Virus record (IMG/VR): IMGVR_UViG_3300028392_000072
Coordinates: 1 to 59,175 of that record
DNA length: 59,175 bases
Source of the DNA: a virus
Direction: 5' to 3' (one strand)
The notes below the pieces were generated by a model. That model was not told where the DNA came from. It saw nothing but the letters and a program-made list of their open reading frames with translations, and did no database searches. Both the position numbers and the translations under genes were made by a program. Shown in pieces: positions 57,076 through 58,598 of this stretch. The number at the start of each line of letters is the position of its first letter. Within the stretch, counting starts at the first letter, position 1.

Positions 57076-57726
57076 ATGAAATATTTAAGAAGATTTAATG
57101 AAGATATTGAAGCAACAATTAAAGCTAATGGTAATATAAAACCTAATATAGATAGTAAGACTAATACTTTAGATACTATCTATGATAAAAGATGGGAAAA
57201 TGAATTATCAGAATTCATTACAATAAATTATCACAATAATCTTTATAAATTTAAGAAAGATAATATAATGTTACATTCTGATATGGTTCAAATAACTTAT
57301 GCTTCCACACCTCTTTATAGTGAAGAGTCTGAAGAAATATGGGGAGCACCTGATACTTTAGAATTTGATATTTATTTTGCTAAAGATGATAAAGATGGTA
57401 ATATAACATTAACTATTGATATTACTTATGGAGATGCTATGGCTTGTGAATTTAGTATTGAAGAACCTAATAAAATAAAAGTTATACAATATACATCACA
57501 TCATTCTAAATTTGATCCAAGTAATACAGTATTTGCCTTAGTAGATGATTCTTTAGAATCATTTATAAAGTTTCTAAATAGATTTGATGGAATGAAACTT
57601 AAAAGAGAAGATTTTAAGTTCTTGGACCAATATGATAATTATAATCCTAAACAGTTTCCAAAACATGCTAAAGATCCTAACATAGTTAATAAGACTAAGT
57701 TAGGATATCCTAATAAAATTAATTAG
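57076..57726 (+). CDS. Tagged hypothetical protein, 216 aa, paralogue of 49699 gene
   Basis: Starts MKYLRRFNEDIEATIK with the shared tag, preceded by TATATAC (57066-57072). The region from ~110 to 190 (TLTIDITYGDAMACEFSIEE; SFIKFLNRFDGMKLKREDFKFLD) matches the 49699 protein. Both lie beside tRNA operons. Unknown function. The gene ends two bases before the last tRNA of the convergent cluster. Confidence 0.7.
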   Translation: MKYLRRFNEDIEATIKANGNIKPNIDSKTNTLDTIYDKRWENELSEFITINYHNNLYKFKKDNIMLHSDMVQITYASTPLYSEESEEIWGAPDTLEFDIYFAKDDKDGNITLTIDITYGDAMACEFSIEEPNKIKVIQYTSHHSKFDPSNTVFALVDDSLESFIKFLNRFDGMKLKREDFKFLDQYDNYNPKQFPKHAKDPNIVNKTKLGYPNKIN

Positions 57727-57798
57727 TAGCGATACCAGGAATCGAACCTGGTCCTCAAGGATATGAGCCGAGTGAGCTTGCCGTTACACCATATCGCC
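57727..57798 (-). tRNA. tRNA-Met (CAU), elongator-type or Ile2
   Basis: Acceptor GGCGATA/TATCGCT, T-arm CCAGG-TTCGATT-CCTGG and a CTCATAT anticodon loop (CAU). The anticodon stem is irregular: GG/CC next to the loop and CTC/GAG outside it, with two unpaired Ts between. It lacks initiator features. A lysidine-modified Ile tRNA with CAU is possible. Last tRNA of the large operon. Confidence 0.78.
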
Positions 57799-57804
57799 AT
57801 TTAG

Positions 57805-57891
57805 TACTTCTGATCGGACTTGAACCGATACGGACCTTCCGGTCCAAGGGATTTTAAGTCCCTCGCGTGCTGCCAATTTCGCCACAGAAGC
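57805..57891 (-). tRNA. tRNA-Leu (UAA)
   Basis: Type II tRNA: acceptor GCTTCTG/CAGAAGT, D-arm GCG...CGC, anticodon arm AGGGA-CTTAAAA-TCCCT (UAA), long variable arm GGACC-GGAA-GGTCC, T-arm ATCGG-TTCAAGT-CCGAT, A73. Well formed. Confidence 0.93.
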
Positions 57892-57898
57892 TTTTTAG

Positions 57899-57970
57899 AG
57901 CTCTCTACCGGTAACGATCCGATTTATTTAGTTTACAAGACTAACGCATCACCATTAATGCTTAGAGAGC
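57899..57970 (-). tRNA. tRNA-Thr (UGU) with atypical T-loop
   Basis: Acceptor GCTCTCT/AGAGAGC, D-arm GCAT-TAATGGTG-ATGC, anticodon arm TTAGT-CTTGTAA-ACTAA (UGU) and T-stem ATCGG/CCGGT. The T-loop is ATCGTTA where TTCRANY is expected, and position 8 is A in place of U. tRNA-Asn of the same cluster shows the same pair of changes, so they may be linked. Confidence 0.85.
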
Positions 57971-57976
57971 TTATTG

Positions 57977-58059
57977 AGCACCTGGAGGGATTCGAACCCC
58001 CGTGACTGAGTTTGCAATCCAGTGCCTTTCGTATTTCTACTCCACTCGACCACAGGTGC
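57977..58059 (-). tRNA. tRNA-Cys (GCA) with hairpin in the D-loop
   Basis: Acceptor GCACCTG/CAGGTGC and T-arm GGGGG-TTCGAAT-CCCTC, with U73 as needed for Cys. The anticodon loop is TTGCAAA (GCA) on a stem CTGGA/CTCAG with an A-C mismatch next to the loop. The D-arm (GTC/GGC) holds about 13 extra nucleotides that form GTA-GAAA-TAC (58031-58040), a mini-hairpin with a GNRA tetraloop. Confidence 0.82.
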
Positions 58060-58066
58060 TTATTAG

Positions 58067-58139
58067 TAGTCCTGACCGGGATTGAACCGATGACCTTCTC
58101 GATGTAAGCGAGTTGCTGCTACCGCTGAGCTACAGGACT
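58067..58139 (-). tRNA. tRNA-Val (UAC)
   Basis: Acceptor AGTCCTG/CAGGACT, anticodon arm ACTCG-CTTACAT-CGAGA (UAC; outermost pair A-A mismatched), T-arm ATCGG-TTCAATC-CCGGT, A73. The D-stem is imperfect (GCT/AGC within GCTCAGCGGTAGCAGC). Confidence 0.88.
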
Positions 58140-58146
58140 ATTTTTG

Positions 58147-58230
58147 TACCGGAGGTGGGACTCGAACCCACACGTCATATAGACACTAGCTTCTAAGGCT
58201 AGCGCGTATTAACCATTTCGCCACTCCGGC
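58147..58230 (-). tRNA. tRNA-Leu (UAG)
   Basis: Type II tRNA: acceptor GCCGGAG/CTCCGGT, D-arm GCG-AAATGGTTAATA-CGC, anticodon arm CTAGC-CTTAGAA-GCTAG (UAG), variable arm GTC-TATAT-GAC, T-arm GTGGG-TTCGAGT-CCCAC, A73. Well formed. Confidence 0.93.
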
Positions 58231-58234
58231 ATTT

Positions 58235-58338
58235 TGTGAATGTGGTAGGGTATTCTCCTACAGATGTGGTGGTTATCTACTTTCCATTATCCACTCTAGT
58301 CATTCGGCTAGTGCTGTTGTAGTTTATCAGCATTCACA
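58235..58338 (-). ncRNA. tRNA-like structure, about 104 nt
   Basis: Sits between tRNA-Leu and tRNA-Arg and has tRNA-like geometry but no canonical tRNA sequence. TGTGAATG/CATTCACA makes an 8-bp acceptor-like stem, CTG/CAG a D-arm, CTAG-CCGAATGA-CTAG an anticodon-like hairpin, GTGG...CCAC a long variable arm and GTAGG-AGAATAC-CCTAC a T-arm whose loop lacks TTCRANY. The anticodon-like loop has no U33. It is either a decaying tRNA gene or a structural RNA that uses tRNA processing. Confidence 0.55.
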
Positions 58339-58348
58339 CATTCTTTTG

Positions 58349-58427
58349 TACCCCAGGTAGGATTCGAACCTACATTTTCAGTTCCGTTACGATTAGTCGC
58401 TTAGAAGGCGACCTCGGCTACTGAGGC
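58349..58427 (-). tRNA. tRNA-Arg (UCU) lacking a normal D-arm
   Basis: Acceptor GCCTCAG/CTGGGGT, anticodon arm GTCGC-CTTCTAA-GCGAC (UCU), T-arm GTAGG-TTCGAAT-CCTAC, A73. Only eight nucleotides (TAGCCGAG) connect acceptor and anticodon stems, too few for a D-arm, while the variable region has 22 nt (containing TCGTAACGG). CCG in the linker is complementary to CGG in the variable region, so this pairing may replace the D-arm. It shares this layout with the neighbouring tRNA-Ile. Confidence 0.78.
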
Positions 58428-58433
58428 ATTTTG

Positions 58434-58512
58434 TCGGTACGATAGGACTTGAACCTACATTTGCAACACCATTACGAATATCCACATTATCAGTGTGGCT
58501 CGGTACGCACCG
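58434..58512 (-). tRNA. tRNA-Ile (GAU) lacking a normal D-arm
   Basis: Acceptor CGGTGCG/CGTACCG, anticodon arm CCACA-CTGATAA-TGTGG (GAU), T-arm GTAGG-TTCAAGT-CCTAT, A73. The linker between acceptor and anticodon stems is seven nt (TACCGAG) and the variable region 23 nt (containing TCGTAATGG). ACC in the linker can pair with GGT in the variable region, a compensatory version of the CCG/CGG pairing of tRNA-Arg. The linker resembles the start of a Ser-type D-arm (GCCGAG). Confidence 0.75.
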
Positions 58513-58527
58513 TTTTATTTCTTTTTG

Positions 58528-58598
58528 AGGACCGGGTGGGTTACGATCCCACTTACTACACGTTAACAGCGTGTTGCTTGCCACTAAGCTTCCAGTCC
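58528..58598 (-). tRNA. tRNA-Asn (GUU) with atypical T-loop
   Basis: Acceptor GGACTGG/CCGGTCC, D-arm GCTT-AGTGGCA-AGC, anticodon arm ACACG-CTGTTAA-CGTGT (GUU), T-stem GTGGG/CCCAC. The T-loop is ATCGTAA and position 8 is A, as in tRNA-Thr of this cluster. First tRNA after the attenuator of leader 3, whose most frequent residue is Asn. Confidence 0.85.

Follow-up and report, generated by a model that had tools for sequence, protein, structure and literature searches.

Two tRNA genes near the end of a 59,175 nt stretch of viral DNA (IMG/VR record IMGVR_UViG_3300028392_000072, positions 1 to 59,175; the whole stretch is called the window here), a tRNA-Ile(GAU) and a tRNA-Arg(UCU), lack a D-arm and share this architecture with genes that recur on unrelated phage genomes. 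In the family that they form, a short helix between the acceptor-to-anticodon linker and the variable region covaries, a 15-48 pair covaries, and the base at position 20 is correlated with the anticodon. We regard it as likely that these genes represent a widespread class of phage tRNAs in which the 5' strand of the D-stem and the D-loop lie behind the anticodon arm. This internal circular permutation of residues 10-45 would give the chain a new topology while preserving the L-fold and the synthetase identity, and it may evade D-arm recognition by host nucleases or enzymes.

An earlier note on this DNA had described both genes as lacking a D-arm, with 7-8 nt between the acceptor and anticodon stems and variable regions of 22-23 nt around a common TCGTAAYGG core, and all of this was confirmed. 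The linker is TACCGAG (7 nt) in tRNA-Ile and TAGCCGAG (8 nt) in tRNA-Arg, and the variable regions are ATATTCGTAATGGTGTTGCAAAT (23 nt) and TAATCGTAACGGAACTGAAAAT (22 nt), respectively. ARAGORN called neither gene in the window, though it detected the tRNAs flanking the pair. Both genes scored above the curated gathering threshold of Rfam RF00005 (29 bits), tRNA-Arg with 36.7 bits and tRNA-Ile with 35.8 bits, and the RF00005 alignment deleted the D-arm region of both, leaving neither with the D-arm hairpin of the cloverleaf.

Further members were sought by pattern scans of 2.9 million viral contigs, with a structural descriptor, and with a covariance model (R1) that was built from 40 members, the window tRNA-Ile among them, and run over whole records. 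The family comprises about 138 distinct sequences at about 100 viral loci, and its genes are continuous, 75-90 nt long, and have their acceptor strands in the normal order. The records closest to the window, uncultured phages of 634,780 and 642,428 bp, each carry a D-armless Ile-Arg pair. The R1 score was 64.5 bits (E value 3e-16) for the window tRNA-Arg, which was outside the training set, and 79.4 bits (E value 1e-20) for the tRNA-Ile, the latter partly by construction since this gene is a training sequence. In records chosen for carrying members, no match listed scored below 43.9 bits; in the first R1 scan the bulk of the weaker matches, taken as canonical tRNAs, fell below about 37 bits. 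The Arg anticodons in the family are UCU, UCG, ACG, CCU, CCG and GCG, and those for Ile are GAU, UAU and CAU. The only clear specificity beyond these two was found in a 416-kb virus record (L292, G005:87299-87377), where the anticodon is CCA (Trp). A gene with the anticodon UCA, which reads UGA, lies at position 440 of a 5.3-kb contig (L123) beside a D-armless Arg(UCU) and may be an opal suppressor or recoding tRNA.

The conventional helices are well conserved across 40 members: 16 of the 17 pairs of the acceptor, anticodon and T stems change on both sides, with 97.5-99% of the cells paired, and when all helices are taken together 97.6% of the cells are paired with 330 double changes. T8A9 is constant in the family, the TTC T-loop is nearly constant, and CCA is encoded in about a third of the members. 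The additional helix, or brace, joins a linker CNN to the NNG that opens the TCGTAAYGG core. In alignment A2 (40 members of the 7-nt linker class only, aligned by sequence alone) it occupies columns 11-13 and 36-38, where 91.7% of the cells are paired with a covariation score of 0.717; shuffled controls scored 0.133 and slid registers no more than 0.151. In A2 the central pair is GC in 17 members, AU in 11, CG in 11 and UA in one, and is thus Watson-Crick in 40 of 40. The same holds for 138 of 138 distinct members, with all four types represented, and in 54 of 54 disjoint closest pairs of sequences that differ at this position both sides change and pairing is kept. The outer pair is mostly C-G, with U-A or A-U in several members. 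The earlier note had proposed that the linker pairs with the variable region as CCG/CGG in one gene and ACC/GGT in the other, and had suggested a search of related phages for further covariation. That search did find a conserved and covarying linker/variable pairing, so the brace stands, but in the CNN/NNG register. The complementarities first proposed are present in the two window sequences but lack covariation over 40 homologues and are impossible in many relatives, and we rejected them as conserved pairing.

The GTAAYGG part of the core is not a brace strand and looks instead like a relocated D-loop. The segment after the brace reads T-A-(A/G), usually one or two pyrimidines, and then G-G-N. 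Its purine, R15, covaries with the base immediately 5' of the T-stem, being A-U in 118 and G-C in 17 of 138 members with three exceptions (Fisher p 1e-20); there are 16 AU/GC contrasts in disjoint pairs, the pairing holds in 40 of 40 members of A2, and no slide or neighbouring column reproduces the pattern. Judged from the alignments, these two bases behave like the canonical 15-48 (Levitt) pair. Every Arg member except one has A at N20, the base that follows G18G19; the Ile members have U, C or G there. In a subset of 55 Arg and Ile members found free of the search patterns, A20 was present in 34 of 35 Arg and in none of 20 Ile members (p 4e-14). Canonical tRNAs on the same contigs behave similarly, the Arg D-loops often being TAAYGGA-like (for example TAATGGA) and those of Ile mostly GGT. 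A20 is the chief determinant for arginyl-tRNA synthetase (ArgRS) in E. coli (PMC9976931). Ile identity depends strongly on the discriminator base, and A73 is present in all 41 Ile-type members; the identity bases of the D-armless members would fit charging.

We consider it likely that these genes encode functional elongator tRNAs whose core is re-threaded, with segment 10-21 transposed and the L-fold kept. In such a molecule residues 10-21, the 5' strand of the D-stem and the D-loop, would be gone from between 9 and 22 and would sit 3' of the anticodon arm and ahead of the T-arm, that is, between 45 and 46. The 5' part would run acceptor - T8 A9 - N - (23-25) - 26 - anticodon arm, and the 3' part 3-5 nt - (10-12) - T13 A14 R15 Y G18 G19 N20 - spacer - A - Y48 - T-arm. 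The linker and variable strands would form the 3 bp helix in place of the D-stem, able to stack on the anticodon stem. We infer that the D-loop-like segment could dock as usual, through 8-14, 15-48 and the contacts of 18/19 with T-loop residues 55/56, so offering N20 to the synthetase. Because residues 9, 45, 46 and 21 of canonical tRNA contact the 12-23, 10-25, 13-22 and 8-14 pairs, the new joins would link points that are already neighbours in space. The L shape would be kept and only the chain connectivity changed. The term D-armless fits the secondary structure of these molecules but probably not their tertiary core.

Several observations weigh against this reading. The inner brace pair is looser, being non-standard in about a fifth of the members, and the 13-22 pair is absent in the family. 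Between G19 and Y48 the spacer ranges in length from 4 to 21 nt, so that a defined chain route is assumed. Many Arg members have U73 instead of A/G73, some members have deviating T-loops (CTCAGAA), and C33 replaces the nearly universal U33 in a few members, including two Arg genes (L396, Cosmo 61106; L358, G030:34408). The search patterns themselves fixed parts of the consensus (GTAAYGG, the anticodon classes and, in two patterns, N20), and for N20 only the pattern-free subset is unbiased. Because some conserved letters were imposed in this way, the argument rests on the brace, on Y48 and on the pattern-free subset.

The members might instead be truly D-armless, like mitochondrial tRNA-Ser(AGY) or an engineered mini HisT, with no contact between D-loop and T-loop, a Y-like or flexible shape, and the new helix acting as a stiffener only. 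The secondary structure without a D-arm agrees with this, a helix extending the anticodon stem would stiffen the molecule, and loss of the D-arm is tolerated by bacterial machinery: mini HisT, an E. coli tRNA-His from which the D-arm was removed, is accepted by HisRS, EF-Tu and the ribosome (PMC11551756). That molecule is an artificial deletion without a brace or relocated D-loop, and it needed a pnp mutation in vivo (PMC11551756). The metazoan mitochondrial D-armless tRNA-Ser and the nematode D-armless tRNAs share the lack of a D-arm in their secondary structure, but their D/T-loop contacts are missing, the T-arm is reshaped and many are shortened; the phage members are 75-90 nt long, phage-encoded, mostly Arg or Ile, and have the covarying brace and D-loop signature. 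We consider this explanation unlikely, as it leaves the R15-Y48 covariation, the A14/G18G19 signature and the tracking of Arg versus Ile by N20, as in canonical D-loops, unexplained.

Decoy or regulatory RNAs that look like tRNAs and do not decode, for example baits for tRNA-cutting defences, are somewhat less probable still. It is known that tRNAs encoded by phages can counteract tRNA-targeting defences (PMC12409363), and canonical isoacceptors coexist with D-armless genes on some carrier genomes (L002), as in the 634-kb phage. Against this, the acceptor stem, A73 in Ile, A20 in Arg, the anticodon loop and the encoded CCA all suit charging and decoding, and the D-armless copies in Streptomyces phage Mildred21 fill gaps in the Arg codon set. 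Mildred21 carries four such genes, Arg UCU at 86379, Arg UCG at 91367, Arg ACG at 94857 and Ile GAU at 73703. Within its broad tRNA set the only Arg tRNA called by ARAGORN is Arg(CCU), and with the three D-armless genes Arg decoding would be complete; the Ile copy looks redundant beside the canonical Ile(GAU) and Ile(UAU) of this phage. Decaying pseudogenes, or introns and insertions mistaken for D-arm loss, would explain why standard finders miss or mislabel members, but are rejected as extremely improbable given helices kept by double changes and one architecture on unrelated phage genomes.

If the re-threaded tRNAs are charged, host enzymes would have to do so, since ArgRS and IleRS are mostly missing from the carrier records: no ArgRS match above the family cut-off was found in 27 of 28 records, and IleRS was also mostly lacking in those examined. 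A phage-encoded partner enzyme was rejected for this reason. Charged by host ArgRS or IleRS, the tRNAs would serve phage translation at AGR/CGN or AUH codons. Escape from nucleases that read the D-arm is only an idea, attractive because a D-loop substitution impaired cleavage by AriB (PMC12409363).

Other cultured carriers are Streptomyces phage Moab, Stenotrophomonas phages SOVA965 and CM1, Agrobacterium phage Atu_ph04, Mesorhizobium phage Cp1R7A-A1, Vibrio phage D260, Pseudomonas phages PAK_P2 and vB_PpuM-Amme-3, Limnohabitans phage DC31, Mycobacterium phage Cosmo, Xanthomonas phage XacN1 (one copy per terminal repeat) and Rhizobium phage RHph_I1_18 (two copies). Laboratory strains are among the hosts of the cultured carriers. 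The copies in cultured phages (including Mildred21, PAK_P2, Cosmo, XacN1 and the P. putida phages) are unannotated or misannotated; in Mildred21, Arg UCU is labelled tRNA-OTHER and Arg UCG tRNA-Phe(gaa), and the other two carry no annotation. No member was found with R1 in 1,092 sampled bacterial genomes (from the phyla of one Flavobacteriia, one Alteromonadales and one lactobacillus genome), with 12-16 candidates scored per genome. The best bacterial matches reached at most 42.8 bits, and those compared with ARAGORN sit at canonical tRNAs. A cellular origin was rejected on this sample, which is not exhaustive. A pattern scan of genome contigs that covered the linker-8 class gave seven matches, none of them a family member, and a search of plasmids was empty.

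The phage genes share with the canonical cloverleaf (RF00005) the 7 bp acceptor stem, 5 bp anticodon and T stems, 7 nt loops, U33, TTC T-loop, discriminator and CCA, together with the T8, A14, R15-Y48, G18G19 and N20 signatures. They differ in having no D-arm hairpin, with the linker/variable helix apparently serving as D-stem and the putative D-loop 3' of the anticodon arm. Permuted tRNA genes of red and green algae and archaea have their segments in an unusual gene order and are processed into an ordinary cloverleaf. In the phage genes, by contrast, no 3' half lies upstream of a 5' half to be rejoined by processing; their acceptor halves keep the usual order, and the swap would concern the internal region alone, in the mature RNA. 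The open-access literature yielded no phage D-armless tRNA, nor this layout in bacteria or phages, and an earlier description elsewhere is possible. Should these tRNAs prove functional, then even in the bacterial cytoplasm the topology of tRNA is not fixed, and phage tRNA annotation is systematically incomplete, with genes missed or called tRNA-OTHER or tRNA-Phe. As products of natural evolution they would also be a scaffold on which to build orthogonal tRNAs, and they would allow a direct test of which features are in fact recognised by host synthetases, by RNase P and by tRNA-targeting defences.

Table 1. Positions in the window of the two D-armless tRNA genes, their elements and the surrounding tRNA array
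Feature	Position	Strand	Basis
tRNA-Ile(GAU), D-armless, without encoded CCA	58434..58512	-	Rfam RF00005, family model R1, homologues in 634- and 642-kb phages
tRNA-Arg(UCU), D-armless, without encoded CCA	58349..58427	-	Rfam RF00005, family model R1
tRNA-Ile anticodon GAU	58489..58491	-	Sequence
tRNA-Arg anticodon UCU	58403..58405	-	Sequence
tRNA-Ile brace 5' strand CGA, linker (canonical 23-25 equivalent)	58500..58502	-	Covariation
tRNA-Ile brace 3' strand TCG, variable region (canonical 10-12 equivalent)	58475..58477	-	Covariation
tRNA-Arg brace 5' strand CGA, linker	58414..58416	-	Covariation and minimum-free-energy fold
tRNA-Arg brace 3' strand TCG, variable region	58390..58392	-	Covariation
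tRNA-Ile putative relocated D-loop TAATGGT (T13 A14 A15 U16 G18 G19 U20)	58468..58474	-	15-48 covariation, N20/anticodon correlation
tRNA-Arg putative relocated D-loop TAACGGA (T13 A14 A15 C16 G18 G19 A20)	58383..58389	-	15-48 covariation, N20
tRNA-Ile Y48 equivalent (U), partner of A15	58459	-	Covariation
tRNA-Arg Y48 equivalent (U), partner of A15	58374	-	Covariation
tRNA array: Asn, Ile, Arg, unannotated class-II-like RNA, Leu, Val, Cys, Thr, Leu, Met	57726..58598	-	ARAGORN, Rfam; Cys by eye

Within the array (57.7-58.6 kb) ARAGORN called Met, Leu, Thr, Val, Leu and Asn tRNAs and left gaps between them, two of which are filled by the Ile and Arg genes. A tRNA-Cys(GCA) with a long D-loop, at about 58058-57977 (-), was read by eye; ARAGORN misses it and Rfam gives only 19.6 bits. 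Between Arg and Leu, at 58345-58236 (-), lies an unannotated class-II tRNA-like RNA of 110 nt with an acceptor-like stem, a D-like arm, a 4 bp anticodon-like arm with an 8 nt loop (CCGAAUGA), a variable arm and a T-arm loop AGAAUAC; its fold has a z-score of -3.0, and neither Rfam nor ARAGORN gave a match. Some apparently canonical tRNAs (window 58527-58598 and 57898-57970; loci L002, L003, L035 and L049) have the T-loop ATCGTNA instead of TTCRANN, in which the reverse Hoogsteen pair 54-58 seems to be A-U in place of U-A, an inversion. Elsewhere in the window, a GOLLD RNA (265 bits; region of 36063-36468 / 35976-36052, (-)) adjoins a tRNA that ARAGORN called as of undetermined type with a four-base anticodon.
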